A DNA stretch of 64,000 nt from an uncultured Lachnoclostridium sp. (GTDB taxonomy: Bacteria; Bacillota; Clostridia; Lachnospirales; Lachnospiraceae): assembly GCA_946415315.1 (NCBI GenBank), contig CAMKRZ010000002.1, positions 1 to 64,000 of the forward strand. Reading direction: 5' to 3'. The stretch's first letter is position 1. The number at the start of each line of letters is the position of its first letter. The notes beneath the pieces were generated by a model that was not told the DNA's origin, searched no databases, and was given only the letters and a program-made list of their open reading frames with translations. This document shows, piece by piece, positions 812 to 62,203 of this stretch. Position numbers and translations under genes: made by a program.

Positions 812-842
812 GGAATCCCCCCTTGGAAAATGTATTTGCGTT

Positions 843-872
843 ATTGTAACATGATATAATTCAGAATGTCAA
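843..872 (-). promoter_or_regulatory. Sigma-A promoter of the 92-811 gene
   Basis: On the minus strand the -35 is TTGACA (867-872) and the -10 is TACAAT (843-848), with an 18-bp spacer. It lies about 30 bases upstream of the start codon. A copy of the GGAAAATG octamer (825-832) falls in the leader. Confidence 0.6.
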
Positions 873-904
873 TATCATTTACTATAAGAACTTGTACTTT
901 TTCT

Positions 905-942
905 TTTTTTACACAAAAAAGCGCCCGGTCAAGCCGAGCGCC
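905..942 (-). terminator. Intrinsic terminator of tmRNA
   Basis: The minus-strand transcript forms GCGCTCGG paired with CCGGGCGC around a five-base loop (about 921-941). A run of six T follows, then a second T-rich stretch. It sits directly after the mature 3' end of ssrA. Confidence 0.85.
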
Positions 943-953
943 ATGTGTCACTA

Positions 954-1307
954 TGGACCTGAGGGGAGTCGAACCCCTGTCCGAATGCCTATCCATTACG
1001 GTTTCTCCCATTACAGACTACCTATCCGGCTTTCGCCCGTTCCCTCCCCTGTGCGCCGATAATCGGGCTCACAGGCTCAGTAGCTTCATCGTACGCCCGC
1101 GCGGGCAAAGCTTACCGCGTGTCGTTTCCCACGTAGATGATGCCGGTTGACCGCTGCGTGGGTGCCGCGGGCCGACAGCCGCCTAATTAGGCAGCAAATG
1201 CAAAACTATTGTCTGCGTTTATATTTAGGTTTTCCGGTTATTTACATGGTCCGGGACATGAATGGCTTCCGCAATCTCAACACACCCGTCGAAACCGGTA
1301 CAAGCCC
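954..1307 (-). ncRNA. ssrA: tmRNA (transfer-messenger RNA)
   Basis: tmRNA rescues stalled ribosomes, adding a degradation tag through its tRNA-like and mRNA-like parts. The 5' acceptor strand GGGCUUG (1301-1307) pairs with the 3' strand CAGGUCC (955-961), with discriminator A at 954. The T-arm reads GGTTCGACTCCCC, and the 5' part contains the conserved GGTTTCGACGGG. CCA is not encoded. The tag frame on the minus strand, ending at TAA near 1185, reads ADNSFAFAA if GCA is the resume codon, similar to clostridial tags ending in FALAA. Length is about 354 nt, normal for one-piece tmRNA. Confidence 0.95.
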
Positions 1308-1340
1308 GGGATAAATGGACAATCCTTCGATTGCCCGCTC

Positions 1341-1369
1341 ATCATATCGCAACGCTCGCAAAATGTCAA
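1341..1369 (-). promoter_or_regulatory. Promoter of ssrA
   Basis: On the minus strand TTGACA (1364-1369) and TATGAT (1341-1346) are separated by 17 bp. The expected start near 1334 gives a short 5' leader before the mature tmRNA end at 1307, consistent with RNase P processing. Confidence 0.8.
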
Positions 1370-1420
1370 GCCTTTCCGAATTGATAAAACATGAGACCGC
1401 GAGCAAGTCATTGTCATTTT

Positions 1421-3120: not shown

Positions 3121-3573
3121 TCACTCCTTAGCCGAAGTTCGGTCTTTCCCGTATTTTCCGGTTATGACAAACGATAAATCTCCGCACGCGCACAGTTCTC
3201 CGTCCACACGAAGTTCCCCATGCACGGAATATAACGGCGGACATGAGCGGACCGGTCTCACTTCGATCACGGCCGTGTCCCCGGGCTTTACCATTCGCCG
3301 GAATTTCACCTTGTCTATCCCGGTGTACACGGCAAGCGCATTTTTTCCGGACAGTTCTCCGGCAAAAAGCACGCACGCGGACTGTGCCATCATCTCACAC
3401 TGGATGACACCGGGCACGATCGGATTTCCCGGAAAATGCCCCTTCAGAAAGAACTCGTCACCCCGTACCGTGTAGTGCGCTGTCGCCGTACCGTCTTCAT
3501 TTTTCGACGCATCATCGATCAGCAGCATCGGGTCACGGTGCGGTAAAATCGTCATAATCTCCTCGCGATTCAT
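3121..3573 (-). CDS. fabZ: 3-hydroxyacyl-ACP dehydratase FabZ
   Basis: FabZ is the hot-dog-fold dehydratase that converts 3-hydroxyacyl-ACP to trans-2-enoyl-ACP in type II fatty acid synthesis. The 150-residue protein begins MNREEIMTILPHRDPMLLID. It has the catalytic His46 in GHFPGNPIVPG and Glu60 in VIQCEMMAQ. The ATG at 3573 is preceded by GGGAG; the longer open frame upstream lies inside fabF and has no family similarity. It sits between fabF and the acyl-CoA ligase. No FabA is seen. Confidence 0.95.
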   Translation of the reverse strand: MNREEIMTILPHRDPMLLIDDASKNEDGTATAHYTVRGDEFFLKGHFPGNPIVPGVIQCEMMAQSACVLFAGELSGKNALAVYTGIDKVKFRRMVKPGDTAVIEVRPVRSCPPLYSVHGELRVDGELCACGDLSFVITGKYGKDRTSAKE

Positions 3574-7888: not shown

Positions 7889-8314
7889 TTATATATTGAA
7901 ATCTTCCGGATGAATGCTTCTTGCGCCGCTCAAGCGTGCCATTGCGCGCGCCATCGCAGCGTTCGAGATGTTGTACTCCACAATGCTCTGCTTGCGCTGC
8001 ATCTCTTCGCGCGCCATATCGAGCGCCACCTGCGCGCGGTGCGCATCGATCTCATCCGGTCTCTCCGCGGAAAATGCCAGCAGCGTCACTTCATTGTCAC
8101 CCGTCTTGATCATCCCGTCCGAAACAATCACTGACTGCGTATTTCCATCCGGATCGCGAAAGCGCACTTCACCGACAGCCACAGTCGTCGCCATCGGGGC
8201 ATGATGCGCCTGGATCTCCATGAGACCGTCGAAGCCCGGGAAAATGATAGACTCGCACTCGCCGTCGTAGAAGATCCTGTCACAGGTAATGATTTTCAGG
8301 TGAAATGTGTTCAT
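7889..8314 (-). CDS. atpC: ATP synthase F1 epsilon subunit
   Basis: The epsilon subunit is part of the central stalk and regulates ATP hydrolysis. The 141-residue protein has the N-terminal beta-sandwich (FHLKIITCDRIFYDGECESI, GLMEIQAHHAPM) and the C-terminal helical hairpin. The ATG at 8314 starts the conserved family; the longer frame begins at a TTG. It ends the atp operon and converges on the MerR gene with a 41-base gap that shows no clear terminator. Confidence 0.95.
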   Translation of the reverse strand: MNTFHLKIITCDRIFYDGECESIIFPGFDGLMEIQAHHAPMATTVAVGEVRFRDPDGNTQSVIVSDGMIKTGDNEVTLLAFSAERPDEIDAHRAQVALDMAREEMQRKQSIVEYNISNAAMARAMARLSGARSIHPEDFNI

Positions 8315-8334: not shown

Positions 8335-9795
<1,461 letters not shown>

Positions 9796-9821: not shown

Positions 9822-10763
9822 TCATTCCGCTGAAGTCGCCGGAACTGCCTGCGCTTTCTTTCTTCTCAACTTTTTCTTCTGCAATGCTTTGGCGCCGCCG
9901 ACAACCTCCGTGATCTCCTGCGTGATCGCCGCCTGGCGGAACTGGTTATACTGCCTTGAAAGATCCGCAAGCATGGCGTCTGCATTGTCGGTAGCCGTCT
10001 TCATGGACATCATACGCGCGCTCTCCTCGGACGCCTGGCTCTCTACCATCGCACCGTACAGAAAACCCGTGACTGTATTCCGAACAAGCGTCTCCAGCAC
10101 CAGTTCCGCGGACGGATGGATCTCCATCTCAGCAACCGCATTCATGCCTTCCTTCATCTGGCCTTTCAGGTAGCGGCTCGTGCGGAAGGGCAACAACTGC
10201 TCCACACACACACTTGAGGAAATGCTGTTTCTCATGCGTGTATAGATCACGTAGATCTCATCAACTTCCTCGGCGCGATACCGCTCCATAAGGATTTCCG
10301 CCATCAGTCGCGCGCGATGGACGGAAGGATTGTTCGAGGACATCCGGAATTCCTTATTGACCGGAAGTTTCTCCGCATTGAAAACATGCCTTCCCGTCTC
10401 GCCGACTGCGTAGATCTGATAATCCTGTGCCGTCTCAAACTGCGCCCTGGCTTCCTTAATGACATTGAGGTTGTACGGACCTGCCATGCCTTTATCGCCT
10501 GTGATCACCACATAGATGCGTCGCTTCACTTTTTCCAGAGCATCTTCCGGACGGTTGTCGAAGAACAGATGCGTCATCTCCGGAAAATGAAGCAGCACAT
10601 CCGTGATCTGCTCCTGCAGCGCAGTAAAATACGGCAGCGTCTCCACAAGTTTTCTCTTGGCCTTCTGCACCTTCATCGACGAGACCATGTACATGGCCTT
10701 CGTGATCTTCATCGTGTCGCGAATACTCTTAATGCGGCCAAGGATCTCATGTGCGTTTGCCAT
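9822..10763 (-). CDS. atpG: ATP synthase F1 gamma subunit
   Basis: This 313-residue central rotor subunit begins MANAHEILGRIKSIRDTMKITKAM, the conserved N-terminal helix. The C-terminal helix is recognisable (NADAMLADLSRQYNQFRQAAI-type sequence). The start at 10763 is preceded by a purine-rich GGAGAGCGGAG. It overlaps the 3' end of atpA by 17 bases. The C-terminus has a short basic extension ending in RRKKAQ. Confidence 0.95.
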   Translation of the reverse strand: MANAHEILGRIKSIRDTMKITKAMYMVSSMKVQKAKRKLVETLPYFTALQEQITDVLLHFPEMTHLFFDNRPEDALEKVKRRIYVVITGDKGMAGPYNLNVIKEARAQFETAQDYQIYAVGETGRHVFNAEKLPVNKEFRMSSNNPSVHRARLMAEILMERYRAEEVDEIYVIYTRMRNSISSSVCVEQLLPFRTSRYLKGQMKEGMNAVAEMEIHPSAELVLETLVRNTVTGFLYGAMVESQASEESARMMSMKTATDNADAMLADLSRQYNQFRQAAITQEITEVVGGAKALQKKKLRRKKAQAVPATSAE

Positions 10764-12501
10764 CTCCGCTCTCCTGTCCGCGCTGCGCAAGCCATTTTGC
10801 GCCGGCCGCGTCCAAACGCTCCAGCTGGGACTTGCGAAGCTTCTCGCCGTTTCCGATCTCCGTGAGAAGATCGGAGTAATTTACTCTCATAAACTTCAGG
10901 AACTCATATTTGGACGCCGCGAGTTCACGCACGGTCAGATTCTCAAACAATCTGCGGTTGGCTGCCTGAAGCAGCACAACCTGTTCCGGCATGGACAAAG
11001 CGTGTCCGAGAGGCTGCTTCAGAAGCTCCATCAACGCGCGTCCGTGTGCCAGCTGACGCTTGGTGCTGTCATCGAGTTCCGAGGAAAACTGGGTAAAGAC
11101 CTCCATCTCGCGATACTGCGCAAGATCGATCCGGACGGTTCCGGAAGCCTGCTTCATCACGGAAGCCTGTGCCGCGCCGCCGACTCGGGAAACTGAGAGA
11201 CCGACGTTTACGGCGGGACGCTGTCCTTCGAAGAAAAGCTCGCTCTCCAGATAGATCTGTCCGTCTGTGATGGAGATCACGTTGGTCGGAATGTATGCGG
11301 ATACATCACCGTTCTGCGTCTCGATGATCGGCAAAGCGGTGATCGAACCTCCTCCGAGCTCGTCGCTTAAGCGGCTCGCACGCTCGAGAAGCCTCGAGTG
11401 AAGGTAGAACACGTCGCCGGGATACGCCTCACGTCCCGGGGAACGCTCCAGCAAAAGAGAGATCGCGCGGTATGCAACCGCATGCTTGGAAAGATCGTCG
11501 TACACAATGAGAACATCACGTCCGCTGTACATAAAATACTCCGCGAGCGCAGTGCCCGAGTACGGCGCAATATACTGTAACGGCGCGGGTTCCGATGCCG
11601 TGGATGTCACGACTACCGTGTACTCCATGGCTCCCGCTTCACGAAGTGTGGTCACCATTTTCGCAATCGTCGAAGCCTTCTGGCCGATCGCGACGTAGAT
11701 GCACACAACATTTTTCCCTTTTTGATTGAGAATGGTATCGAGCGCGATCGAGGTTTTGCCTGTCTGGCGGTCGCCTATGATCAACTCACGCTGTCCTCGT
11801 CCGATTGGGAACATCGAATCGATTGCAAGAATACCGGTCTCCATGGAAGTCGTTACCGGCTGGCGTTCCATGATGCTCGGCGCAGGATTTTCCAAAGGAC
11901 GGAAATCGGACGATACGATCTCGCCCTGACCGTCTACCGGATTGCCGAGAGCATCCACGATGCGCCCGATAAAACTGTCGCCGACCGGCATGCCGGCCAT
12001 ACGGCATGTTCTCGTCACCTGGCTTCCCTCAAGGATCTCCGTGTCCCGTCCGAACAGGATCACACCGATCTCATCCCGGCGGATGTCCATGACCATGCCC
12101 TTGACGCCGCAGGAAAATGTCACGATCTCACCGTAGCAGGCATGATCGAGGCCTGTGACAACCGCAATGCCGTCGCCGACGAAAGAAACCGTTCCGTATT
12201 CCTTCTCACCAGCAGCGAGTTTGAATTCCTCAATGCATTTCTTAAGGTTGGCAACCGTCTTCTTCGGACGTCTTCCGTGCACAACGCCAAGCGCGCCGCG
12301 CAGTTGTTCTACGCGGCCGTACATGCTCCAGTCGTAAATCTTGGTCTCCGTGCGCAGGATAAAACCGCTTACAAGAGACAGCTCAACTTCGACTTTGATC
12401 TCAATATCGGGATCGTCCTCCTCGCGCGCGAGGAAGGCTTTCATACGCGCAAGCTGAGCCTCCGACGGAGGCGTCACGCAATACAACGTTGCATGTCTCA
12501 T
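10747..12501 (-). CDS. atpA: ATP synthase alpha subunit with N-terminal delta-subunit domain
   Basis: At 584 residues the protein is about 80 longer than usual alpha subunits. Residues about 1-72 match the C-terminal domain of delta/OSCP: YCVTPPSEAQLARMKAFL, then VELSLVSGFILR and IYDWSMYGRVEQL, corresponding to the delta pattern D-x-S-x3-R-x-x-x-L. Alpha proper begins near 77 and has VSFVGDGIAVVTGLD near 105 and Walker A GDRQTGKT at 243-250. The start codon overlaps the atpF stop (ATGA), so no separate atpH can exist in the usual position. This fusion would tether the peripheral stalk directly to alpha, in principle giving three delta-like domains per F1. Confidence 0.93.
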   Translation of the reverse strand: MRHATLYCVTPPSEAQLARMKAFLAREEDDPDIEIKVEVELSLVSGFILRTETKIYDWSMYGRVEQLRGALGVVHGRRPKKTVANLKKCIEEFKLAAGEKEYGTVSFVGDGIAVVTGLDHACYGEIVTFSCGVKGMVMDIRRDEIGVILFGRDTEILEGSQVTRTCRMAGMPVGDSFIGRIVDALGNPVDGQGEIVSSDFRPLENPAPSIMERQPVTTSMETGILAIDSMFPIGRGQRELIIGDRQTGKTSIALDTILNQKGKNVVCIYVAIGQKASTIAKMVTTLREAGAMEYTVVVTSTASEPAPLQYIAPYSGTALAEYFMYSGRDVLIVYDDLSKHAVAYRAISLLLERSPGREAYPGDVFYLHSRLLERASRLSDELGGGSITALPIIETQNGDVSAYIPTNVISITDGQIYLESELFFEGQRPAVNVGLSVSRVGGAAQASVMKQASGTVRIDLAQYREMEVFTQFSSELDDSTKRQLAHGRALMELLKQPLGHALSMPEQVVLLQAANRRLFENLTVRELAASKYEFLKFMRVNYSDLLTEIGNGEKLRKSQLERLDAAGAKWLAQRGQESGDGKRT

Positions 12502-12974
12502 TTCTCTTCCTCCATCGTGTTCAGGAACGCATCATAAAGCTCGGATTCATCGACATTGCCGAGAATTTTCGTCGTTGCGGACGCGATCATGTCGCCGATC
12601 TCCTTGCCGGCCTCGGAGATAATTCGCTGTTTGCGCTTCTCACCCTCCGTGCTCGCATCCTTCTTGATGATCTCAGCCTCTGAGCGGGCTTCCGTGAGCA
12701 TTTTCCGATACTCTTCATCCGCCTGCGCTCTGGCTTCCGTCAGGATCTTCTCTCTCTCAGCCTCGGTCTTCGCAATGGCCCTTTCGTACTCAGCCTTGCA
12801 ACGATCTGCCTCAGCTGCCCGTTCCTCTGCTTCCTTCGCTGCGGCGTCAGCTTCCTCCTGCCGCTTCGCAATGATGTTGCGTACCGGCTTGAAGAGCAGA
12901 AACTTCATGGCAACGAAAAGGATTGCCAGATTGATGACGGTAAAAAGAATACTCCAGAAATCAATCTCCAGCAT
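12498..12974 (-). CDS. atpF: ATP synthase F0 b subunit
   Basis: The 158-residue peripheral-stalk protein has one N-terminal membrane segment (about residues 5-28). A long charged coiled-coil follows, rich in Ala, Glu and Arg. Its length is typical for a single b subunit, so the missing delta is not fused to b as in mycobacteria. It is translationally coupled to the delta-alpha fusion by an ATGA overlap. Confidence 0.95.
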   Translation of the reverse strand: MLEIDFWSILFTVINLAILFVAMKFLLFKPVRNIIAKRQEEADAAAKEAEERAAEADRCKAEYERAIAKTEAEREKILTEARAQADEEYRKMLTEARSEAEIIKKDASTEGEKRKQRIISEAGKEIGDMIASATTKILGNVDESELYDAFLNTMEEEK

Positions 12975-13420: not shown

Positions 13421-14098
13421 TCACTCCACCGCTTCCGTCAGGTACAGTCCCGTCAGGAAGACAAACACATAGGCCTGCAGAAGCCCGTCGAAAAAGTCAA
13501 AATACACGCTGAGTACCATGGGAATTCCGATCGGCACAACGATCTCGATCAGAGCCATGATGACGAACGCACCGATGACGTTACCGAAGAGTCGCATACA
13601 CAGCGACAACGGCTTTGTGACAACTTCCATAATGTTGATCGGCAGGATCACCGGTGTCGGTTCGATGAACTTGTGAAGATGTTTTCTGATCCCCAGGAAA
13701 ATGATCCCTGCCGCCTCGACGAGCACAATGCTCATCAAAGCGAGCGCGATCGTCACATTCATGTCCTTCGTAGGGGATTTGAAACCGAAGATGCCGACGA
13801 TGTTCGCAAGTCCGATATACAGAAGTACCGTGATCAGGTACTCACTGAACACCTTCGCCTTGCCGTGAACCATGCCGCCGACCATGTTGTCGAGTTTTGT
13901 GACCATCCATTCCAGAAACGCCTGGCGTTTGGTGATGTTTCGCGTGCGAAGCCCTCGTGTCATCACAATGGCGAAGATGATAAACACAGCCATGATGATC
14001 CAGGTCACGACGATCGACTCCGTCACGGGAATTCCGCCGAAAAGGGGGATTGTGAATACAGTCTTCACTTCCAGTTTTTCCATCAGTTCTTCGGTCAT
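13421..14098 (-). CDS. atpB: ATP synthase F0 a subunit
   Basis: The membrane stator subunit has five to six hydrophobic segments. The essential arginine is Arg169 in LSLCMRLFGN. From the ATG at 14098 the length is 225 residues; the start is uncertain because the AGGGGG upstream is 13 or so bases away, and ATG codons at 14155 or 14083 are alternatives. It is the first gene of the atp operon. No atpI or atpZ precedes it; rnpB lies immediately upstream on the same strand. Confidence 0.92.
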   Translation of the reverse strand: MTEELMEKLEVKTVFTIPLFGGIPVTESIVVTWIIMAVFIIFAIVMTRGLRTRNITKRQAFLEWMVTKLDNMVGGMVHGKAKVFSEYLITVLLYIGLANIVGIFGFKSPTKDMNVTIALALMSIVLVEAAGIIFLGIRKHLHKFIEPTPVILPINIMEVVTKPLSLCMRLFGNVIGAFVIMALIEIVVPIGIPMVLSVYFDFFDGLLQAYVFVFLTGLYLTEAVE

Positions 14099-42176: not shown

Positions 42177-42185
42177 TATTGTTCG

Positions 42186-47419: not shown

Positions 47420-48874
47420 TCACCCGAAATTGACCTCATTGGCTGAGATAAGAATCTGCACACGGTATCCCGGAATGATATTCCCCGGCTCCGTATTGTG
47501 CAAAGTCTCAGAAAAATTACTGTCGAAATTATTGAACCAGTCAATCCTAACAAGCTTCGCGTAAGGCTCCGTAATCCTGAAATCGTCCCTCTGTTCGCGG
47601 AATGCCGCGGCAGTCTCCGAAAGGCCGATTGCCTCCATGACATTCCCGATCTGTGCCGCATCTTCCGCGCTATAGCACTTCTCCTGCGCGCCGGTCACAA
47701 TGCTTCTTTGGTCGGATACAATAAACTCCGCTCCTTCGAAATACCCCGCCGCAAAATACAGCTCCTTATACGGAAGTCCGAAATAGCGCCTGATCTTCCG
47801 ATAAATGCCGATCATCGTCCGCCCTTCAAACTCACTTGTGAAGACCGTAACCTCGCCCTCATCCGAGATGGATACTTCTTCAAACACAGGCAATTCCGTA
47901 ATCTTGCGGACACCTTCCTCATCGGAGCGATACACTGCAAGGATTATGCCTGTTTTATTGATCTCCGGTCGTGTCTCCAGAGGCTTCTTCACGGAGCGTA
48001 CCAAAAGCGCTTCTACCCACTTCTGATCCGACTCATCATTTGCCTTCGGCTGCGTAAACTGCCCGCCCCGGTACGTGATGATCCCTTCCTTCATACTGCT
48101 CTCGCCGTACCGGAAGGTCTCACCGTCAATCGAGATGTAGTTCACTTGATACGTGATAAAATCGCATTTTCCGTACTGCGGGTATACCGTGTTCCGGATG
48201 TAATCCTGCAATCTCCTGTAATAATTCGGAAAACGCTTATCGTACTCCCGGTAGAACAGCGCTCCCCACAGAGCGGCTGCGGCACCGAAGCCGTCAGGCC
48301 ATGCCATGTAGCCGCTGGCACTGATTTTTCGCCCCCTGCCATCCTGAAAGGAGAAACTGAAATTTTCGCCGTCATAGACATTCATCGCGTGACCGTTGAA
48401 ACCATTCCACTCATCCGCGTTACAATTGGTAAGAATGGATTCCAGTTCCGAGAGAAACGAGTCATCAACCTCGAAGACAGGGGCATCTTTTATGTCCATT
48501 CCGCTCATGCGAACCTGTGCATAGGCCTTGTCCTCATGCTTCCATGCTTTATAAGTCACCCCTGAGCGAAACATCATGCCTCCGGTTGAATACTCGAAGT
48601 TCCAGACAGAATTCATCCTGCTCAACAGATCATCGATGCTTATCTGTCCGTTCGTTGCAAAGCCTCCCGGCATTCCGAGTCCCGCAAACGGAAAGACCTC
48701 AAACGGATTGATTCCGGTAGGGATTGACCCGCTTGTATTGTTATTCGGCGTAACGGTCGCGCCGGTTTGGTTTACCGGTTCCCCCTCTGACACATTGCCC
48801 TCGAGCCTGCTTCCGCATTCGGGGCAGAATTTCGGAGTTCCCTCAATTTTATATCCGCAGGTAAGACAGAACAT
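47420..48874 (-). CDS. Zinc-ribbon protein with large uncharacterised domain
   Basis: The 484-residue protein begins with a CxxC...CPxCG ribbon (MFCLTCGYKIEGTPKFCPECG). A Thr/Asn/Gly linker follows, then a roughly 380-residue domain of unknown function with aromatic-rich beta-like pattern. GAGGTG supports the ATG at 48874. It lies between a lipoprotein gene and the hydroxyacid dehydrogenase on the same strand. I do not recognise the main domain. Confidence 0.75.
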   Translation of the reverse strand: MFCLTCGYKIEGTPKFCPECGSRLEGNVSEGEPVNQTGATVTPNNNTSGSIPTGINPFEVFPFAGLGMPGGFATNGQISIDDLLSRMNSVWNFEYSTGGMMFRSGVTYKAWKHEDKAYAQVRMSGMDIKDAPVFEVDDSFLSELESILTNCNADEWNGFNGHAMNVYDGENFSFSFQDGRGRKISASGYMAWPDGFGAAAALWGALFYREYDKRFPNYYRRLQDYIRNTVYPQYGKCDFITYQVNYISIDGETFRYGESSMKEGIITYRGGQFTQPKANDESDQKWVEALLVRSVKKPLETRPEINKTGIILAVYRSDEEGVRKITELPVFEEVSISDEGEVTVFTSEFEGRTMIGIYRKIRRYFGLPYKELYFAAGYFEGAEFIVSDQRSIVTGAQEKCYSAEDAAQIGNVMEAIGLSETAAAFREQRDDFRITEPYAKLVRIDWFNNFDSNFSETLHNTEPGNIIPGYRVQILISANEVNFG

Positions 48875-49776: not shown

Positions 49777-49917
49777 GTTCTTCTCCAATCCGGTCACTTC
49801 AATTGACAACTTTGTATCCATACGCGATGGAATCCCCATTTTCCTTCGCTCCCCTGCAATTAAGGGATTACTGAGGCATATGTGTATTATATCACAAAAT
49901 ATGTTCTTCGTAAACCG

Positions 49918-50475: not shown

Positions 50476-50540
50476 TCAACCTATTTTTCGGAAAATGATC
50501 GGTTATTATCCGGGAAAACCGTTGAAACTTACGAACACTG

Positions 50541-53056: not shown

Positions 53057-53189
53057 GGCTAAGCTCCTTCCGCCGCTTTGTTACCTCACGGCTTGCGTTC
53101 ATTTCGGAAAATGTGTCTTTCTTCCGACGTATTCAAAAATAAAGTATCAGCTTTTCGCGTATGTGCGTAATGAATAAAATATAGCACAT

Positions 53190-53218: not shown

Positions 53219-54144
53219 CACCCAAATACTGCCCCGTTGATATCCTCGATCATATCGATCACAGCCTGTCTCGAAGCGTCCGCAAAGTTCTCCGGAGCAA
53301 ACTTCTCCGCATATTTCGCCTGCTTGTATGCTGCGATGATCCCGCGCGAAGAGTTGACGATCGCGCCGAGACCGTCCTCGTTAAAATACGGCTTGAGACC
53401 CTCGGCTGTTCCGCCCTGTGCACCGTAACCGGGTACAAGGATGTACGCCTTCGGCATAATTTTCCGAAGGATACGCCCCATCTCGGGGTACGTAGCGCCG
53501 ACAACGCAACCGACGTTGCTGTACGCGCCGTCCATGCTCATCTCGCCCCACTCAGCCACCTTCTCGCCGACCCACTCGTAGAGCGGTCTGCCGTCGATCA
53601 GGCGGTCCTGGAACTCTCCGCTCGAAGGATTCGAAGTTTTGACCAGCAGGAAAATGCCCTTGTCATCGCTGTTGCATACCTCGAGGAACGGCTTCACACC
53701 GTCCGAACCGAGATACGGATTGACCGTCGCAAAATCCTCGTCAAACGCCGCATAACTCTTGCCGCCGATGACGGTCTTTCCGAGATGCGCTACCGCGTAA
53801 GCCGCGGAAGTCGATCCGATGTCGCCGCGCTTCACGTCGCCGATCACGAGAAGTCCTTTCTCATGGCAGTAGTCGACCGTTCTGCGGAACGCGATCAGTC
53901 CCGGAATACCGAACTGCTCATACATCGCGATCTGCGGTTTCACGCAGGGGATCAGGTCATACGTCGCGTCCACAATAGCCTTGTTGTACTGCCACACTGC
54001 CTCTGCCGCGCCGTCCGGCGTCTCTCCGAACTGCTCAAACGCGGCTTTCGTAATATGCTCCGGAATGTACGAGAGCATCGGGTCAAGTCCGACCACGATC
54101 GGTGCGTTAGTCTTCTGGATCTTGTCAATCAATTTGCTGATCAT
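53215..54144 (-). CDS. pyrF: Orotidine 5'-phosphate decarboxylase (type 2)
   Basis: PyrF makes UMP from OMP. The 309-residue length and the IGDVKRGDIGSTS motif with the catalytic Lys/Asp identify the longer type 2 family. AGGAG eight bases upstream fixes the start. It follows pyrC by 96 bases and is probably cotranscribed with it; the other pyr genes are elsewhere. Confidence 0.95.
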   Translation of the reverse strand: MISKLIDKIQKTNAPIVVGLDPMLSYIPEHITKAAFEQFGETPDGAAEAVWQYNKAIVDATYDLIPCVKPQIAMYEQFGIPGLIAFRRTVDYCHEKGLLVIGDVKRGDIGSTSAAYAVAHLGKTVIGGKSYAAFDEDFATVNPYLGSDGVKPFLEVCNSDDKGIFLLVKTSNPSSGEFQDRLIDGRPLYEWVGEKVAEWGEMSMDGAYSNVGCVVGATYPEMGRILRKIMPKAYILVPGYGAQGGTAEGLKPYFNEDGLGAIVNSSRGIIAAYKQAKYAEKFAPENFADASRQAVIDMIEDINGAVFGC

Positions 54145-54240: not shown

Positions 54241-55500
54241 TCAATACACTCTCGCGCCGTCCACGAAAGTCGCGAGCACCTTGCCGTAGACTCTTCGTCC
54301 GTCGAACGGCGTGTTTTTTCCTTTCGAGCGGAAGTATCTCGCATCGATCCGGCACTCCTCACCGGTGACGATCGCGATATCCGCAGGCGCTCCTATTGAC
54401 AACGTCCCACCCGTATGGCCGACAATGCGCGAAGGATTCGTGCTCATGAGCCGGACAAGCGTGGGCATGTCGATATATCCGCCCTTCACAAGCGTTGTGT
54501 AGGTAAGCGCAAACGCGGTCTCCGATCCGACAATGCCGAACGGCGCTTTTGCGAACCCGCGCGCCTTCTCCTCTGCCGTATGCGGCGCATGGTCCGTTGA
54601 AATACAGTCAAACACACCGTCGCGGATTGCCTCCCGCAGAGCCTCCATGTCCGCCCTGCTCCGAAGCGGAGGGTTCATCTTATAGTTCGCGTCATCACCG
54701 GGAATCTCGTCATCGCACATCGCAAAGTGATGCGGGCACACCTCGCCGCTCACCGGATAACCGGCCTCTTTCGCCGCCTTCAAAAGTGTCGCGGAAAATG
54801 CGGTCGAACAATGGCAGAGGTGCACATGACACCCGGTTTCACCCGCAAGGATCAGATCTCTCGCCGTGATCACGTCCTCCACGGCATTTGTGATCCCCGG
54901 AAGCCCGAGTTTCTCGGAGGCGATTCCCTCGTTGATCACTCCGCCGGCGACAAGGTTCTTATCTTCGCAGTGTGCGAGCATCGGAAGCCCGACCTCAGCC
55001 GCCTTGCGAAGCGCCTCGCGATAAAGCAGAATGTCCATCACGGATTTGCCGTCCTCGGACATTGCAACGGCACCGGCTTCCTTCGCCGCTGCAAGGTCGG
55101 CAAGTTCTATGCCCTCCTGACCGATCGTCACCGCTGTTACCGGCAACAGCTTAATCGGACATTCCGTCTTCGCGCGCCCAAGAAGCGTCGCAATCTTCTC
55201 CGCGCTGTCCGTCGAGGGCGTCGTGTTCGGCATTGGCGCAACCGCCGTATATCCTCCGGCCGCGGCAGCTGCCGTGCCGGTTGCAAGCGTCTCCTTCGCC
55301 GTCTGTCCGGGGTCACGAAGATGAACATGCAGATCGACAAACCCGGGCACGACATATGCACCGCGGCAGTCGAGCTCACCCTCTCCATCTCCCGGAAGGT
55401 TGTCCGCAACCGCAGCGATCACGCCATCGCGGAATGCAACATCCGTCACCCGGTCGATCCCGTTCACGGGATCGATCACATGTCCGTTTCGCAGTATCAT
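54241..55500 (-). CDS. pyrC: Dihydroorotase
   Basis: The 419-residue amidohydrolase closes carbamoyl-aspartate to dihydroorotate. Metal-binding motifs are DLHVHLRDPG, the CEDK segment, CHCS and STDHAPHT. GGAGG is four to five bases upstream of the ATG. It lies 12 bases after thiN and upstream of pyrF, forming part of a recJ-thiN-pyrC-pyrF unit. Confidence 0.96.
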   Translation of the reverse strand: MILRNGHVIDPVNGIDRVTDVAFRDGVIAAVADNLPGDGEGELDCRGAYVVPGFVDLHVHLRDPGQTAKETLATGTAAAAAGGYTAVAPMPNTTPSTDSAEKIATLLGRAKTECPIKLLPVTAVTIGQEGIELADLAAAKEAGAVAMSEDGKSVMDILLYREALRKAAEVGLPMLAHCEDKNLVAGGVINEGIASEKLGLPGITNAVEDVITARDLILAGETGCHVHLCHCSTAFSATLLKAAKEAGYPVSGEVCPHHFAMCDDEIPGDDANYKMNPPLRSRADMEALREAIRDGVFDCISTDHAPHTAEEKARGFAKAPFGIVGSETAFALTYTTLVKGGYIDMPTLVRLMSTNPSRIVGHTGGTLSIGAPADIAIVTGEECRIDARYFRSKGKNTPFDGRRVYGKVLATFVDGARVY

Positions 55501-55512: not shown

Positions 55513-56301
55513 CTACTCTATACTGTCAAGAAAAATGTCACGCGGGAGGAAATCTCCGACGATCAGGAGTGTTCCTTTCGAAAAACGGATCCGTGCGCTT
55601 TCCCCTTTCGTTTCGTTGCTCACTCCGAGCGCGTAATCGTCCGCAAGCGTTACCCCGTTTGCTTCGTATTTGGCGCCGCTGATCGTCACGCCATCCGCGG
55701 TTCCCATGCCAAACAGGCTGAACGGTCTGCCCGCCTTGCCGCGTCCGCTCAAACAGATTGTCCTGCTTCCGCATCCGTCAGCATGCACCACCGTTGCAGT
55801 CAGGCCCGGTCCGATCAGAAATCCGGTCCCTCCGCTCAGCGCGATATGCTTGAGGAGCTGCAGATTAGCGATCGTGTGATCCCATCTGCCGCCGGTTCCA
55901 CCGTAAAGATAAAACGTCTTATACCCACGCTCCTGGCCGATCTTCACGGCCGCGCCCATGTCCGTATCATCCTTCTCCACGGGAAGTTTGAATACGGTCA
56001 TGTCTTGGTCGTTCCGCATCGGATCGTCTCCGGTCACTTCCGCACCGACATTTTCCGACAACGAATCCATATCTCCGATGAAAATGTCCGGTTTCAGAAA
56101 CGTCAGTTCCTCCCGGATCCAATCCATGCCGCCGTCGGCCGCGATCACCAGATCCTTGTCGTCACAGCGGATACCATCCGAAATACATTCTGTCTGTAGG
56201 TCCGTTTGACACGGAGTCATCTTCACGGAATCACAGCCGGTTGTTTCAATTCGCTCCTTCGGCACCCGTTCACCGGCTCCGAAGATCATACAGATTCCCA
56301 T
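55513..56301 (-). CDS. thiN: Thiamine pyrophosphokinase
   Basis: This enzyme converts thiamine plus ATP to thiamine diphosphate. The 262-residue protein has the ADGGMDW, IGDMDSLS and KDDTDMGAAVK motifs and GGTGGRWDHTIANLQLL, all typical of ThiN. An insert about 12-45 makes it longer than usual. The ATG at 56301 has GGAG six bases upstream; the longer frame begins at TTG. Confidence 0.92.
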   Translation of the reverse strand: MGICMIFGAGERVPKERIETTGCDSVKMTPCQTDLQTECISDGIRCDDKDLVIAADGGMDWIREELTFLKPDIFIGDMDSLSENVGAEVTGDDPMRNDQDMTVFKLPVEKDDTDMGAAVKIGQERGYKTFYLYGGTGGRWDHTIANLQLLKHIALSGGTGFLIGPGLTATVVHADGCGSRTICLSGRGKAGRPFSLFGMGTADGVTISGAKYEANGVTLADDYALGVSNETKGESARIRFSKGTLLIVGDFLPRDIFLDSIE

Positions 56302-56313: not shown

Positions 56314-58062
56314 TCAGAAACGATACCCTTTCACCTCAACCTCAATACTCACGCGGTCCTGAAAGACATTTTCCCGCGCGGTATAGAGAATTGTCATGCG
56401 GGATGTCCCGCGTCCGTACATCGTATTGTCCGTCTCGTCGTCTCCGAATTTCTCCCGGAATTCTGTGAGAAATCCTGCGGCGTCGTCAAAAAGCATGCCT
56501 TTCAGTTCCGTTCCCTGTTCGTCGCGAAGCCGCAACGAGAGGAACTGTCCTTCGCTGCCCACGCGCCGGATACCGGTCACCGTAACATTTCGCAGTGCAA
56601 ACAAAGGCTCACTGTTGCCCTTTCCGAACGGTCCCATCATCGCGATCTCCTCGATGACCGCATGACTGAGCTGCGAGAAGGGAACTTCCAGGTCGATTCT
56701 TCGGCCTCTGCGAAGGCTTGCGTTCTGCAGGCGGAACTCCTCCGCCATCCGCTGTCGCATCTCCTCCAGCCGGTCACGTTCGATGGTCAGACCGGCCGCC
56801 ATGGGATGACCGCCGTATTTGACGAACAGATCCGAGTGCGCATTCAGCGCGTCGATCATGGAAAATGACTCCGTGCTCCGCCCGGACCCCTTCAACATGC
56901 CTTCCGTCCCCGCAGCGTCTGTCAACAGAAATGTCGGGCGGTTCCATGCCTCGCGTACTTTTCCGCACACGATCCCCGCGATGCTCTCATGACATCCGGG
57001 AAGATACAGCACCAGCACCGGCTCGTCGGTATTTCGGGCAACCTGCTCATCCGCGAGTCGAATGGCTTCCTTCGTGTAAAAATCCGACTGCTCGCGACGT
57101 CTGCGGTTTACTTTCACCATGCGTTCCGCATACTCCCTGCGGAGATCCGCGTCGTGAGTTAAGAGAAGTTCGACTCCGGGATCTGCCGTTTCCAGGCGTC
57201 CGAGAGCATTGATACAGGGGCCGAGCACGAAGCCGAAGGCGTATGCCCTCACCGGCTCCTGCATGCCATTTGCCTCAAACAAAGCCCGCAGACCGGCATT
57301 CCACTCGCGCACCGGCTTCGTCATCCCTTTCCGAACGATATCACGAGCGATCCCGTTCAGTTCCATCACATCACAGAGCGTGGCAAGCGCAAGGATCTCC
57401 GTCATACTGTCGCAAAAACCGTCCATCCGCTCCGTCGCCAGCAGCGCATTCGCAAGCAGTCCTGCGACGACAGCTCCGCAGACATTGTCATACCTCTCCG
57501 ATCCATCGGCAAGCTTCGGATCGACCGTGCAATCCGTCTCCGGCAAATGCTCCTGCGGATCGTGATGATCGGTGACGACAACCCGCATCCCCAGTTCCTT
57601 CGCAAGCGCGCACTGGCTCACTGCGGCAATTCCGTTGTCCACCGTAACGATCGTGCGGACGCCGTCTGCCTTAGCCTGCCGCACCATCTCATCCGAGAGG
57701 CCGTAACCATCCGCAACGCGGTCCGGAATACGATAGTCCGCATCGGCACCGAGCATGCGAAGCGCTGTAATCATCAGGTATGTGCCGGTCACACCGTCCA
57801 CATCGTAGTCGCCGAACACGCGAAACCGGCCTCCCTCAGTGAGCGCCTCGCGCATTACGCGGACAAACTCGTCCGTTCCCGATAACCGCGGCCAGGCGAT
57901 CCTCTCATCGCCGTACAGATACGAAGCAACCTGCTCCGAAGTTCGGAACCCGCGGCTCCACAAAATGCGTGCCGTGATGTTGGTGATCCCGAACCGATTC
58001 ATCAATTCCGTCACATCGCCGGAGCGCCATGCCGTCATCCAGTCCTCTTCATATCGTCGCAT
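56314..58062 (-). CDS. recJ: Single-stranded-DNA exonuclease RecJ
   Basis: RecJ is a 5'-3' exonuclease of recombination and mismatch repair. The 582-residue DHH-family protein has FGDYDVDGVTGTY, VTVDNGIA, VTDHHDPQ and the DHHA1 part with YGGHPMAAGL. The start has AGAGG upstream. Its position after secDF is conserved in Firmicutes. Confidence 0.95.
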   Translation of the reverse strand: MRRYEEDWMTAWRSGDVTELMNRFGITNITARILWSRGFRTSEQVASYLYGDERIAWPRLSGTDEFVRVMREALTEGGRFRVFGDYDVDGVTGTYLMITALRMLGADADYRIPDRVADGYGLSDEMVRQAKADGVRTIVTVDNGIAAVSQCALAKELGMRVVVTDHHDPQEHLPETDCTVDPKLADGSERYDNVCGAVVAGLLANALLATERMDGFCDSMTEILALATLCDVMELNGIARDIVRKGMTKPVREWNAGLRALFEANGMQEPVRAYAFGFVLGPCINALGRLETADPGVELLLTHDADLRREYAERMVKVNRRRREQSDFYTKEAIRLADEQVARNTDEPVLVLYLPGCHESIAGIVCGKVREAWNRPTFLLTDAAGTEGMLKGSGRSTESFSMIDALNAHSDLFVKYGGHPMAAGLTIERDRLEEMRQRMAEEFRLQNASLRRGRRIDLEVPFSQLSHAVIEEIAMMGPFGKGNSEPLFALRNVTVTGIRRVGSEGQFLSLRLRDEQGTELKGMLFDDAAGFLTEFREKFGDDETDNTMYGRGTSRMTILYTARENVFQDRVSIEVEVKGYRF

Positions 58063-58116: not shown

Positions 58117-60363
58117 TTACGCGTGTTCCTTCTTCATGCTTCTGGTCTTAAAGAAGTACCAGAGCGAACCTGCGATACAGACGGAGGAATATCCGCCGCA
58201 CAGAATACCGACTGCCATCGGAATCGCAAAAATACGCACCGACTCCACTCCGAGGATGATCAGCATGACAACCGTGATCAGCGTTGTCACGGAAGTATGA
58301 ATGCTTCGCGTGAACGTTTCCGTGATGCTTCGGTTGACGACATCGGCAAGCGTATCTTTCTTGGTCATCATACCGAGATTCTCGCGCAGACGGTCGAAAA
58401 TGACGATCGTCGCGTTAATACTGTAACCGACGATGGTCAGCATACATGCGATGAAACTCGTGTCGACCGTGATCCGAGCAAGCGCATACAGGCACAATAC
58501 CACAAGGATATCATGGATCAGCGCGAGCACGGAACTTGCCGCAAATGCCATGTTCGAGAACCGGATCAGGATGTAGATCAGCATACAAACGGTAGCCACT
58601 GCAACCGCGATGAACGCGTTGGTCTTCATCTCACCGGAGATCGTACCGCTGATGGTCTCCGTCTCAATGTCCGATTCGCTGATGGAATAGGTGCTCATCA
58701 ACGCCTTCTTGAGCGTGTCAAGCGTCTCCTCGTCGAGCGACTTGGTTTTCAAGACAAGCACTTCACGGCCTTCCACCGCGGATACGGTAGCATTTTCCCC
58801 GATCTTATCCGCGACAAACTTCTCCATATCACCGTTCGTAGGCGCATTGCCGTTGAACGTGACCTGAACGGAAGTGCCTCCTACAAAGTCGAGACCGTAG
58901 TTGAGTGCGTCTCCTGTCGTGGACTTGTTCACAATCAGCATGACAATGCAGAGAGCAATGATGGAACCGGAGATCAGCAGGTACTTCTTCCAGTTCTGAA
59001 TGATGCGCATCGGCTTCTTCTCTTTCGCCTCGCCGTACGCGCTGACATTGTCGATTCCGACATAGTAAAATGCCTTCATGATGAAGTAGGTTACGACAAA
59101 CGCCGTGAACATCGAAACGAGAATACCGATGCCGAGCGTTGTCGCAAAGCCCTTGATCACGCCGCTTCCGCGGAAGTACAGCACGATCGCTGCGATCAGC
59201 GTCGTAACGTTGCCGTCGATGATCGCGCTGAGAGCCTTGCGGTAACCGATCTTGACAGAGGACCGAACCGTCTTGCCGGTCGCCAGTTCCTCTCGTATTC
59301 GCGTGAATATGATGACGTTCGCGTCAACCGCCATACCAACGGAAAGTATGATACCCGCGATACCGGGCAGCGTAAGCGTCACATCGAACGTCAGCAGCAT
59401 CACAAGCATCAGTCCGAGATAGGTGATCAGACTCAGGCTTGCTGCAAAACCGGGCACGCGGTAGAAAATGATCATGTAAAGGCATACAAGAACAAAGCCG
59501 ATCGCACCGGCGATCAGACTGGTCTTGAGCGCGCGGCTTCCGAGCGTAGCACCGACCACATTGGACCGCAGCGATTCAATCTCGATCGGCAGAGCACCGA
59601 TCCGGATGACCGTTGCGAGGGATTTCGCATCCTCAAGCGACATGTTGCCGCCGGAGATCGTCGCATTGCCACCGGAGATCGTCTTTCTGACTCCGGGCGC
59701 GCTATATACAACATTGTCGTAAATGATCGCAATAATATTCTGAAGGGAGTTCTCTGCGTACTGCGCGCACTTCTGTGTAGCAGTCTCAAACTTCTTGCTT
59801 CCCTCCTCGTTGAGCGTCAGCTGAACCAGGTATTCGATCGCGCCGGACTCCTTCTGGTTCGTCATGGCATCCGCGCCTGCGACATCCGCACCGTCGATCA
59901 CCACGCAATTCGCAGCAATGATCTCCTCCATGGTACGAGCAAGCACATAATTCCCGCTTGAATCCTTCTTAATATTCTCGTTGCCTTCGGAATCTACGGC
60001 ATAAACAAAATATATGTTGCCGGCATTGCCGAGCGTGTTAAAGACTTTCTCCGCGTCATCCTCGCCCGGGATATCCACGTTAATCCTTCGTTTTCCTTCC
60101 AGATATACACGGGACTCTGTACTCAACGCAGTCGCACGCTTCTCCAGCTTCGTCTGAAGGTCACCCATTTCCTCCGACGTAGGATCTTCCTTAACGGTCT
60201 GATAGGTAACACTGACACCGCCTGCGAGATCCAGACCGAGTTTCACGTCCGTCAGCCCGGGAATGTTGTCGTTGGTATAACCGAAATAACCCCAGAGGGC
60301 GATCGCTGCAATGATCAGACCAAGCCCGATCAGCATCAGTATACCTTTCGTCTTTTCTTTCAT
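58117..60363 (-). CDS. secDF: Fused SecD-SecF protein-export membrane protein
   Basis: SecDF uses the ion gradient to pull exported proteins across the membrane. The 748-residue protein joins SecD (GLDLAGGVSVTYQ, the P1 domain, six membrane segments) and SecF (LDFVGGTSVQVTF near 490, six membrane segments). Twelve segments in one chain is normal for Bacillus-type SecDF. AAGGAAGG lies upstream of the ATG. A short TGCGCC/GGCGCA hairpin (60391-60406) occurs in the leader. Confidence 0.96.
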   Translation of the reverse strand: MKEKTKGILMLIGLGLIIAAIALWGYFGYTNDNIPGLTDVKLGLDLAGGVSVTYQTVKEDPTSEEMGDLQTKLEKRATALSTESRVYLEGKRRINVDIPGEDDAEKVFNTLGNAGNIYFVYAVDSEGNENIKKDSSGNYVLARTMEEIIAANCVVIDGADVAGADAMTNQKESGAIEYLVQLTLNEEGSKKFETATQKCAQYAENSLQNIIAIIYDNVVYSAPGVRKTISGGNATISGGNMSLEDAKSLATVIRIGALPIEIESLRSNVVGATLGSRALKTSLIAGAIGFVLVCLYMIIFYRVPGFAASLSLITYLGLMLVMLLTFDVTLTLPGIAGIILSVGMAVDANVIIFTRIREELATGKTVRSSVKIGYRKALSAIIDGNVTTLIAAIVLYFRGSGVIKGFATTLGIGILVSMFTAFVVTYFIMKAFYYVGIDNVSAYGEAKEKKPMRIIQNWKKYLLISGSIIALCIVMLIVNKSTTGDALNYGLDFVGGTSVQVTFNGNAPTNGDMEKFVADKIGENATVSAVEGREVLVLKTKSLDEETLDTLKKALMSTYSISESDIETETISGTISGEMKTNAFIAVAVATVCMLIYILIRFSNMAFAASSVLALIHDILVVLCLYALARITVDTSFIACMLTIVGYSINATIVIFDRLRENLGMMTKKDTLADVVNRSITETFTRSIHTSVTTLITVVMLIILGVESVRIFAIPMAVGILCGGYSSVCIAGSLWYFFKTRSMKKEHA

Positions 60364-60419: not shown

Positions 60420-60448
60420 ATTATAGCACATCTTTTACGGAAATGAAA
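60420..60448 (-). promoter_or_regulatory. Promoter of secDF
   Basis: TGCTATAAT (hexamer 60420-60425, extended -10) has a weak TTTCAT (60443-60448) 17 bp upstream on the minus strand. Confidence 0.6.
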
Positions 60449-60508
60449 CAAAAACATAACAGAAAACAGAAGGAAATTCGGAAAATGAATCACCGGTTAA
60501 AAAACTTG

Positions 60509-60537
60509 TTGCGTTTGTTGTATGACTGTGATATGAT
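60509..60537 (+). promoter_or_regulatory. Promoter of degV
   Basis: TTGCGT (60509-60514) and TATGAT (60532-60537) are 17 bp apart, about 65 bases upstream of degV. Confidence 0.5.
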
Positions 60538-60602
60538 ACCGATGTGGTTTTCATTTCTACGTTACATGACTTTCAATCTTATGATACCTATGGAGGATAC
60601 TC

Positions 60603-61472
60603 ATGAGTGACTATGTGATCAGCACAGACTCAACCTGCGACCTTCCTTACTCGTTCCTGAACGAACACGATGTATTGATACATGCCCTGGAATATACGGA
60701 CGGCACAACGACCAACGAAGACGGCCCCTCTACCGACCTTCAGCAGTTCTATCAGAACATGCGCAACGGCATTCAGTACATGACCAACGCCTCAAATCCG
60801 GTCAGGATCACGAAGACGTTCCGTTCAGTACTCGACGATGGTAAGGATATCCTTCACATCGGTTTTTCCTCCGGGTTGAGCAGTTCCTTCAACAATGCTG
60901 CGATTGTCGCCAATGACCTCGCCGAGGAGTATCCCGATCGCAAGATCATTGCTCTCGACTCTCTTGCCGCCTCCATGGGACAGGGACTTCTCGTATATTA
61001 TGCATGCAAGAAGAAAGAGGAAGGCGCCTCCATCGACGAAGTAGCAGACTGGCTGAAGGAAAATTTCCTACACGCCTGCCATCAGTTCACGGTAGACGAC
61101 CTCAAGTATCTCATGCGCGGCGGTCGTGTCAGCAAAGTTTCCTGGCTGCTCGGCACGCTGATCAACATCAAGCCGGTTTTGCATGTCGATGACGAAGGAC
61201 ATCTAATCCCGGTGGCGAAAGTCCGCGGACGCAAGAAATCACTGACCACTCTCGTGGATAACATGGAAGCGACGATGGGTAGTTATCGTGACAAAAACGA
61301 AGTGATCCTCATCTCCCACTGCGATTGCTATGAGGATGCTAAGTTTGTCGGCGACCTCATTACGGAGCGTTTTGGCTTTACAAACATCGTTTATAACTAC
61401 ATTAATACCGTGATCGGTTCCCACAGCGGGCCCGGTACCGTCGCCCTGTTCTTCCTCGGTGACAAACGATAA
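60603..61472 (+). CDS. DegV family fatty-acid-binding protein
   Basis: The 289-residue protein has the DegV fold: STDSTCDLPYSF at the start, TNASNPVRITKTF, GFSSGLSSSFNNA, DSLAASMGQGLLVYYA and SHSGPGTVALFF at the end. DegV/FakB proteins bind fatty acids, and FakB presents them to a kinase (FakA); no fakA is nearby. GGAGG supports the start. A bidirectional terminator follows. Confidence 0.93.
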   Translation: MSDYVISTDSTCDLPYSFLNEHDVLIHALEYTDGTTTNEDGPSTDLQQFYQNMRNGIQYMTNASNPVRITKTFRSVLDDGKDILHIGFSSGLSSSFNNAAIVANDLAEEYPDRKIIALDSLAASMGQGLLVYYACKKKEEGASIDEVADWLKENFLHACHQFTVDDLKYLMRGGRVSKVSWLLGTLINIKPVLHVDDEGHLIPVAKVRGRKKSLTTLVDNMEATMGSYRDKNEVILISHCDCYEDAKFVGDLITERFGFTNIVYNYINTVIGSHSGPGTVALFFLGDKR

Positions 61473-61505
61473 TACACAGATTAAACTGTTCTTTTTCTTC
61501 TTTCA

Positions 61506-61539
61506 CAAAGACGAGCGCCGTAAAAGGCGCTCGTCTTTG
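61506..61539. terminator. Bidirectional terminator after degV
   Basis: CAAAGACGAGCGCC pairs perfectly with GGCGCTCGTCTTTG around a six-base loop, with T-rich flanks to the right. Confidence 0.88.
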
Positions 61540-61615
61540 TTTATCGGTTCATGAAATCACAGTTTATTCGTCATCTTACCGATGCGAACCTGCTTTCTGT
61601 CTGCTCTTCAGCTGC

Positions 61616-62203
61616 TTATGCCCAGGGATCCTGTGCCGCAGGGGTACGGATGTCAGCCAGAAGTCCGTAGAAACTGTCGGAGAAGACAAACCACTCACCG
61701 GTCGACGGCTTTGTGCGAAGCGTAAGCGGTCTCGGAGAATCAGCTCCGCCGGACTGCAGGAACAGTCTCAGGTAACCCTCGCTGAAATTATCGCGGCTGT
61801 AAGGATTCTCCGCAACGGTGATCGTATAAGGCGAACTCGGCATATAATTGTTGTCCGGCGTAGCACCCTTGAAGTACGAGCGAGGCTTATATTCCTTGTT
61901 ATCACGGAAACGATCCTTGATGAACGAGATATCGCCGGGCGTAAGCGGCGACGGTCCCTTCAGGAAATTCATCATCTCGATGGATGTGTTCTGGTCCGTA
62001 GGGAAAATGCAAAGTGCGCATACGCAAAGTGCTGCTACTGCAAACGGATTCTTCAGATCCGCGTACGGAAGAGCCTTCATCTCCGCAAGAGAAGTCGGAA
62101 TATCAACGAACGTGATATCCTTCTTCGGGTTTGTCTCCTGTGCGGAACTCGAGGTCCCGAGCGCGTCGGTAACTGTCTTTTTCAAATTGTCAAAAAAACC
62201 CAT
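61616..62203 (-). CDS. DUF6935-like hypothetical protein
   Basis: The 195-residue soluble protein begins MGFFDNLKKTV and has SLAEMKALPYADLKNPFA, an internal Cys-rich segment CVCALC, YKPRSYFKGATPDNNY and a C-terminal RTPAAQDPWA, the pattern I associate with DUF6935 proteins of Clostridia. AAAGGAG is about 10 bases upstream. Function unknown. Confidence 0.75.
   Translation of the reverse strand: MGFFDNLKKTVTDALGTSSSAQETNPKKDITFVDIPTSLAEMKALPYADLKNPFAVAALCVCALCIFPTDQNTSIEMMNFLKGPSPLTPGDISFIKDRFRDNKEYKPRSYFKGATPDNNYMPSSPYTITVAENPYSRDNFSEGYLRLFLQSGGADSPRPLTLRTKPSTGEWFVFSDSFYGLLADIRTPAAQDPWA

Follow-up and report, generated by a model that had tools for sequence, protein, structure and literature searches.

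Why does one octamer recur so often, on both strands, along a stretch of clostridial DNA? The stretch, called here the window, is the first 64,000 nucleotides of contig CAMKRZ010000002.1 (C2), which belongs to the assembly of an uncultured Lachnoclostridium sp. (G000, 2,933,571 bases in 42 contigs). The word is GGAAAATG, and an earlier note, made from the letters of the window, had likened it to the words that guide DNA uptake in other bacteria. Uptake sequences have been described for Pasteurellaceae and Neisseriaceae (PMC5031613, 2016; PMC7811141, 2020; these and the papers below are cited from extracts). Our analysis suggests that GGAAAATG, preferably preceded by C and not followed by G, and joined in some sister lineages by GGCAAATG, is probably a DNA uptake sequence of the cell's own uptake machinery. 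The earlier note had named two outcomes that would tell against such a reading, a genome-wide frequency near the Markov expectation and an enrichment explained by codon or dipeptide usage. Neither occurred, and the mixed orientation of the copies holds.

Frequency, context and orientation of the octamer

Exact matches to GGAAAATG number 44 in the window (25 forward, 19 reverse), more than for any other 8-mer there. First- and second-order Markov models predict 2.9 and 3.9 copies, and 100 dinucleotide-preserving shuffles of the window gave 3.06 on average and 8 at most. The strong over-representation and mixed orientation reported earlier thus stand, and the count of 43 (24/19) is corrected by one copy; the first copy starts at 598 rather than 825, and the last ends at 62009 as stated. 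GAAAATG is preceded by G, C, T and A 44, 8, 14 and 5 times, and GGAAAAT is followed by G, A, C and T 44, 8, 7 and 9 times, close to the hand counts made before (43, about 8, about 13 and about 5; 43, then about 5-7 each).

The whole genome carries 1,763 copies (890 forward, 873 reverse), compared with 18 + 17 of the reversed word. This ratio overstates the excess because the reversed word is itself scarce, at 0.38 times its Markov expectation, and the Markov figure is fairer. For the Markov, codon-shuffle and flanking-base tests we used 645 kb of this genome as a sample. It holds 353 copies, compared with 34.6 expected under the second-order model, an excess of about tenfold, and 50.7 under the third-order model, both expectations being inflated by the motif's own copies. 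The second-order score of GGAAAATG is the highest of all 8-mers, and the overlapping word CGGAAAAT is slightly commoner (381 copies). One short word is therefore over-represented many-fold genome-wide, beyond both the Markov and, as follows, the codon expectation.

Such an excess might simply follow from codon or dipeptide usage, from base composition or from mutation bias. We placed the sample copies relative to 500 script-called genes covering 88.7% of the sequence: 277 are genic, 72 intergenic and 4 lie across gene edges. The commonest class, sense frame 2 (Glu-Asn), accounts for 113 of the 277 coding copies, as a by-product of dipeptide usage might. Yet shuffling synonymous codons within genes, which preserves the protein sequence and codon usage of each gene, left a mean of 33.9 copies (60 runs, sd 5.9, maximum 45), eightfold fewer than observed. 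The excess extends to all six combinations of frame and strand (113, 27, 12, 73, 44 and 8, compared with 14.5, 5.7, 2.5, 3.0, 6.0 and 2.2 after shuffling). The intergenic copies exceed their second-order expectation of 6.6 by 11-fold, and their density is twice that of genic copies (p 7e-7). We give a compositional origin almost no credence. The claim that copies occur in all frames, sense and antisense, and in non-coding DNA was borne out in the sample; one of the non-coding examples given for the window, at 49837, lies inside a listed open reading frame (ORF; 48883-50454, -), yet the word itself could hold the start codon there.

A purine-rich 8-mer in high copy number could also act as a polar guide, like Chi in recombination or the FtsK-orienting polar sequences (KOPS) and SpoIIIE recognition sequences (SRS) that direct DNA pumping by FtsK and SpoIIIE. 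These are marked by strong polarity along each replichore, which we did not find for GGAAAATG. On contig C1 (291 kb), where GC skew, measured in 20-kb blocks, does not change sign, 89 copies lie on the forward and 78 on the reverse strand. Relative to the local GC-skew strand, 162 copies are on the leading (G-rich) and 143 on the lagging strand (p 0.30; 305 of the 322 copies of the window, C1 and C3, after dropping blocks with weak skew or below 5 kb). Seven purine-rich words of our choice gave 58/17, 43/11, 36/8, 41/21, 44/15, 40/4 and 44/7 in the same blocks, and GGAAAATG escapes the strand asymmetry that is usual for such words. Since it has no replichore polarity, in line with the contrast to Chi and KOPS that had been drawn from the window, a guide function is very improbable.

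The copies are dispersed over coding and non-coding DNA and originate by point mutation rather than insertion. They are not clustered: counted in 5-kb blocks, they are spread about as evenly as a Poisson process predicts, or more so (variance/mean 0.81, 0.95 and 0.86). A promoter or terminator element was considered and rejected: densities in tandem, divergent and convergent gaps are equal (1.09, 1.08 and 1.13 per kb), and GGAAAATG therefore has no tie to promoters or terminators. Eight of the nine pairs at most 23 bp apart are inverted, including the one at 15527/15549 in the window, and they recall the hairpin pairs that known uptake sequences form. We regard hairpins as a side issue, because close pairs show no clear excess up to 60 bp (14, compared with 11.4 expected) and a slight deficit up to 200 bp (29, compared with 36.6).

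The motif extends little beyond the octamer. C precedes 203 of the 353 sample copies and G follows only 26; a search for a longer motif around them returned these two preferences and weak leans towards C/T at positions -3 and -6. Single changes are tolerated at the two G's, at the last G and, from A to C, at position 3, and are not tolerated inside the inner AAAT. Observed/expected ratios at 0, 1, 2 and 3 mismatches are 10.2, 1.77, 1.03 and 1.03. By rising mismatch number, they are 1.24, 1.08 and 1.07 in the congener G006, and 0.38, 0.92, 1.06 and 1.51, 1.40, 1.20 for two control words in G000. Apart from the exact word and certain tolerated changes, little excess remains.

Relatives, dialects and conserved sites

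Raw genome-wide counts in 21 congeners range from 221 to 1,684 copies, with 10-99 of the reversed control. The ratio of word to control is about 1.2-4.4 in 27 other genera of the family, with one genome each, and about 0.7-4.4 in 31 genomes of the order. We built midpoint-rooted trees from a pyrF-like gene (18 of the 22 genomes of the genus) and pilB (17 of 22). Both contain a clade A with the genome studied here, G002, G005, G007, G009, G013, G014 and G019 (672-1,763 copies), which G010 joins in the pyrF-like tree, and a clade B with G001, G004, G008, G016 and G018 (449-863 copies). G006, G015 and G017 stand apart from the two clades in both trees (221-374 copies), and G011 is on a long branch (767 copies). 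The branching order of clade A, clade B and the rest is unsettled, given the midpoint roots and a fork in the LepA tree.

Two of the outlying congeners are almost devoid of any excess, a further point against a by-product of composition: samples of G006 and G017 contain 24 and 20 copies, compared with 19.3 and 15.0 under the Markov model (1.2- and 1.3-fold), and their genome-wide ratios to the reversed control (2.7 and 4.5) are within or near the family background. Neither GGAAAATG nor GGCAAATG is enriched in these samples. Other congeners use GGCAAATG as a dialect. In the sample of G007 the top 8-mers are CGGCAAAT and GGCAAATG (6.5-fold), and GGAAAATG is 4.1-fold enriched relative to the Markov model; in the pooled sample of clade B GGCAAATG ranks first (5.3-fold) and GGAAAATG reaches 3.9-fold. 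Genome-wide, GGCAAATG and its reversed control number 622/129 in G007, 614/117 in G012, 611/185 in G016, 584/146 in G008 and 334/96 in G000, compared with 84/176 and 106/130 in the word-less G017 and G006. The dialect is not strictly clade-bound, because G007 sits inside clade A. Related species thus carry different dialects.

The positions of the copies are partly conserved. Of the aligned sites of G000, 16 of 29 are kept in G014, compared with 128 of 407 for permuted words (p 0.007), and 26 of 49 in G009, compared with 147 of 783 (p 8e-8). Within the alignments these two genomes themselves carry similar numbers of sites (25 and 51), some of them at other places. Four comparisons together aligned 108 sites, of which 5 coincide with a gap. 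A smaller comparison of the leuS-secDF region, in four identity bands, found 15 of 43 sites kept. The alignments to G006 and G017 contain just 2 and 3 sites and are uninformative on conservation. Sites are therefore held among near relatives while turning over, and beyond the nearest relatives conservation is not demonstrable.

These patterns bear on the possibility that GGAAAATG is a chromosome-wide binding or modification site unconnected with uptake, in which a methyltransferase, or a protein that organises the nucleoid, would need copies spread along the chromosome. A protein of the latter type might likewise account for the dispersal, the lack of polarity, the conservation in two congeners and the twofold intergenic density. 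However, copy numbers differ widely and the dialect changes within one genus, which is more in keeping with an uptake bias that drifts. Sites of methylation also tend to be shorter than GGAAAATG, and many are palindromes. A comparable repeat is HIP1 of cyanobacteria, also a very frequent octamer dispersed genome-wide, for which a link to a methyltransferase has been discussed; HIP1 is palindromic, whereas GGAAAATG is not. On balance, though no search aimed at a methyltransferase or DNA-binding protein was made, a binding or modification site is unlikely.

We also surveyed 250 genomes from 249 genera of the family (2 genomes of the same genus, 248 of others), using raw copy numbers, with enrichment relative to the reversed-word control and enriched genomes picked by eye. 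Five other genera have GGMAAATG at least 8 times as often as the control: G141 (2,128/229), G260 (1,029/54), G125 (1,185/148), G285 (1,301/147) and G191 (911/90). GGAAAATG alone gives 1,616/82, 714/15, 783/41, 625/80 and 633/73, respectively, and other genomes are intermediate for GGMAAATG, for example G029 (432/83) and G095 (799/156). A LepA tree of 30 selected genomes, weak in its backbone, scatters the five enriched genera, which may reflect either one old word that was often lost or several gains. We lean slightly towards the view that uptake sequences of Lachnospiraceae are a third independent invention, with GG(A/C)AAATG dialects in scattered genera, gained and lost repeatedly, and a new pilin as reader.

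Uptake machinery and the case for an uptake sequence

The genes for such a process are present. The genome contains a type IV pilus operon (C5:66757-80255) with pilB, pilT, pilC, two pilins, a prepilin peptidase, pilM and a pilN-like gene; other products of the operon share a pilin N-terminus, among them one of 169 and one of 332 residues. The two ATPases were named by PF00437; PilB, PilM and the pilin N-termini by Pfam; pilC, the prepilin peptidase and pilN by eye. We found comEC at C3:166780-169017, comEA, with HHH_3 and SLBB domains, at C3:172362-173030, and dprA at C7:40342-40965. Judged by genes alone, the host thus has type IV pilus machinery, ComEA, ComEC and DprA, the check on competence genes that the earlier note had proposed. 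Among 61 genomes searched, the ATPase family matched in 61, HHH_3, which is also present outside ComEA, in 61, and ComEC in 58. The ComEC match is in two pieces in G015 (C63:24535-25331) and G016 (C57:53707-54488), from either a frame break or an assembly error, and in one piece in the other matching congeners. The 169-residue minor pilin is 32-58% identical among congeners, compared with 79-95% for PilB, showing that minor pilins diverge fast.

We propose that a surface component of this pilus, for which a minor pilin is the most plausible candidate, would bind double-stranded DNA carrying the word, and that pilus retraction driven by PilT would draw the bound DNA in. ComEA would then bind the incoming DNA, ComEC would pass one strand into the cell, and DprA and RecA would recombine it into the chromosome. 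As fragments with the word would enter more often, recombination would spread and maintain it genome-wide by molecular drive, in either orientation and in genic and intergenic DNA alike, wherever mutation makes the word and function tolerates it. Activity of this machinery, its preference for the word and the identity of the reading protein are inferred.

The same enrichment could be produced by another route of DNA transfer, a gene transfer agent or phage packaging, in which the filter would act on the donor's rather than the recipient's side: biased transfer followed by recombination would likewise enrich a packaging word. The pilus and com genes are present, however, and known gene transfer agents pack DNA largely at random, so that, though no search aimed at such an apparatus was made, we consider a packaging word distinctly improbable. 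What we observed is the enrichment, its independence of codons, the lack of polarity, the dispersal, the conservation in two congeners, the dialects and the presence of the genes. None of the alternatives explains the enrichment, lack of polarity, dispersal and dialects as simply as uptake does.

Several observations weigh against an uptake sequence. Every line of evidence is genomic. The competence genes permit uptake and do not prove it, because the word-less congeners G006 and G017 also have the pilus operon and comEC/comEA; the machinery is thus not discriminating. No comEC match was found in the enriched G020 (1,232 copies, 82% complete) and G021 (625 copies, 79% complete), and no dprA match in the enriched G009 (1,578 copies, 95% complete) or in G015, which could be due to assembly gaps. 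When we looked for a receptor, the minor pilins showed no motif besides the generic pilin one at the N-terminus, and the sole hit to the ComP_DUS model scored well under its cut-off (17.9 compared with 27.3 bits). The one-mismatch excess of 1.77 is not distinctive, since one of the two control words reaches 1.40 in G000 and exceeds GGAAAATG at one mismatch in G007 and clade B. Positional conservation, which the earlier note had wanted checked, is present in G014 and G009 and is not evident further away: only 1 of 11 ungapped sites is kept in G007 (plus 1 in the dialect form; 8-mer background 0.186), and a weak 4 of 14 in clade B (background 0.144).

The location of the copies adds two points of the same kind. 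Uptake words of Pasteurellaceae are biased to gene ends (PMC2346458), and here such a bias is at most weak: sense copies fall 44/42/66 into gene thirds (p 0.02) and antisense copies 41/39/45 (p 0.64). Uptake sequences are rarer in newly acquired DNA and in rRNA genes (PMC7811141). We considered word-poor stretches as mobile DNA and rejected this, since the two longest gaps are unlike mobile DNA overall: the longest (14.0 kb, C3) holds housekeeping genes and one integrase-like gene, and the second (9.6 kb, C1) ordinary genes, both as judged by eye.

Comparison with the known systems shows likenesses and differences. Like the uptake signal sequence (USS) of Pasteurellaceae, AAGTGCGGT, GGAAAATG is one short non-palindromic word with more than 1,000 copies genome-wide. 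The USS has 1,471 copies in H. influenzae, where fewer than 10 are expected from base composition, and the excess of known uptake sequences decreases in graded steps with mismatches (PMC1939737). The letters of GGAAAATG are unrelated to the USS, its host is a Clostridia-class bacterium, and its roughly tenfold excess was obtained with a second-order model, a stricter null than the base composition used for the USS; nor was a graded mismatch excess established here. The DNA uptake sequences (DUS) of Neisseriaceae also come in dialects among related species, with family members lacking an obvious word, and the S. muelleri genome, like that of G007 here, holds two of them in almost equal numbers (PMC3630211). 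They number 943-5,918 copies (PMC3630211), compared with the 1,763 of GGAAAATG in a larger genome. The letters of the DUS are again unrelated, the core of GGAAAATG is shorter, and no receptor like ComP was recognised. The sequence-specific receptor is the pilin ComP in Neisseria, and PpdA/ComN have been proposed in Pasteurellaceae (PMC12616744).

For the class Clostridia we found no precedent: among the matches listed, the titles and abstract starts in PubMed Central (subscription papers and preprints being outside this scope) include none on uptake sequences of Clostridia or Lachnospiraceae, and GGAAAATG as a whole word was not found in that literature search. A study with a section on an uptake bias in Veillonella names uptake sequences among its possible causes (PMC5397411).

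If GGAAAATG is an uptake sequence, it would be a genomic sign of natural transformation in gut Clostridia and a third unrelated case of an uptake word, which would point to the self-marking of DNA as a general outcome of biased uptake. The cell envelope of Clostridia differs from that of Pasteurellaceae and Neisseriaceae. It would also suggest an easy way to introduce DNA into bacteria that resist genetic manipulation, namely to place the word on the fragment, and sister genomes with or without the word, in either dialect, would make a natural comparison for finding the receptor. Were the third invention real as well, natural transformation would be regular and self-selective among rumen and gut Clostridia.

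Positions of the copies and other features

All copies in the window are exact matches. The 25 on the forward strand are at 598..605, 825..832, 3431..3438, 8069..8076, 8239..8246, 8776..8783, 8979..8986, 10582..10589, 12112..12119, 13696..13703, 15549..15556, 15812..15819, 16326..16333, 24415..24422, 31269..31276, 33702..33709, 37665..37672, 42620..42627, 50490..50497, 53106..53113, 53649..53656, 54793..54800, 56860..56867, 60480..60487 and 62002..62009. The 19 on the reverse strand are at 8391..8398, 12699..12706, 14561..14568, 15527..15534, 19434..19441, 35314..35321, 37419..37426, 39750..39757, 41217..41224, 42341..42348, 43247..43254, 45391..45398, 46489..46496, 47290..47297, 48165..48172, 49837..49844, 56049..56056, 56367..56374 and 58791..58798. 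Numbered along the window, copies 14 (15527..15534) and 15 (15549..15556) form the inverted, hairpin-capable pair.

Other repeated words turned up in the samples. ACTGCCACTG has 27 copies in the 645-kb sample of G000, compared with 0.5 expected, and is probably part of a longer dispersed repeat with TACTGCCACT and GCCACTGATA. CAATCAG/CTGATTG is enriched about threefold in the C3 sample of G006 (55 compared with 17.3) and in the clade B samples (146 compared with 48.7). AGGGCTAT occurs 30 times in the 197-kb sample of G017, where 1.7 copies are expected, and is either a repeat element or another word.

The leuS gene of the window (50621-53056, -) informs on kinship. The five closest named LeuS records are metagenome-assembled genomes of Lachnospiraceae (89-98% identity): RGIG10172 (yak rumen), RUG14385, RGIG8119 and RGIG8148 (water buffalo rumen) and RGIG2751 (goat omasum). 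By these relatives, the genome appears to belong with rumen Lachnospiraceae. Outside the genus, Ruminococcus records are closer in amino acid identity (81-83%) than many labelled Lachnospiraceae (about 76-81%), a possible sign of transfer.

Some neighbouring genes deserve mention. An ORF of 877 residues (34364-36997, -) has an extracytoplasmic function (ECF) sigma-factor domain at about residues 55-220, its remaining 640 or so residues being unmatched among the best 25 of 32 families. Another of 883 residues (39310-41961, -), with no NCBIfam match at 1e-10, adjoins a tRNA-Thr gene (42185-42258). A 579-residue ORF (4831-6570, -) matches FabK (enoyl-ACP reductase, residues 16-319) and FabG (3-oxoacyl-ACP reductase, residues 340-578) end to end, and is apparently a FabK-FabG fusion. 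The window also includes a transfer-messenger RNA gene (954-1307, -) with the tag peptide ADNSFAFAA.

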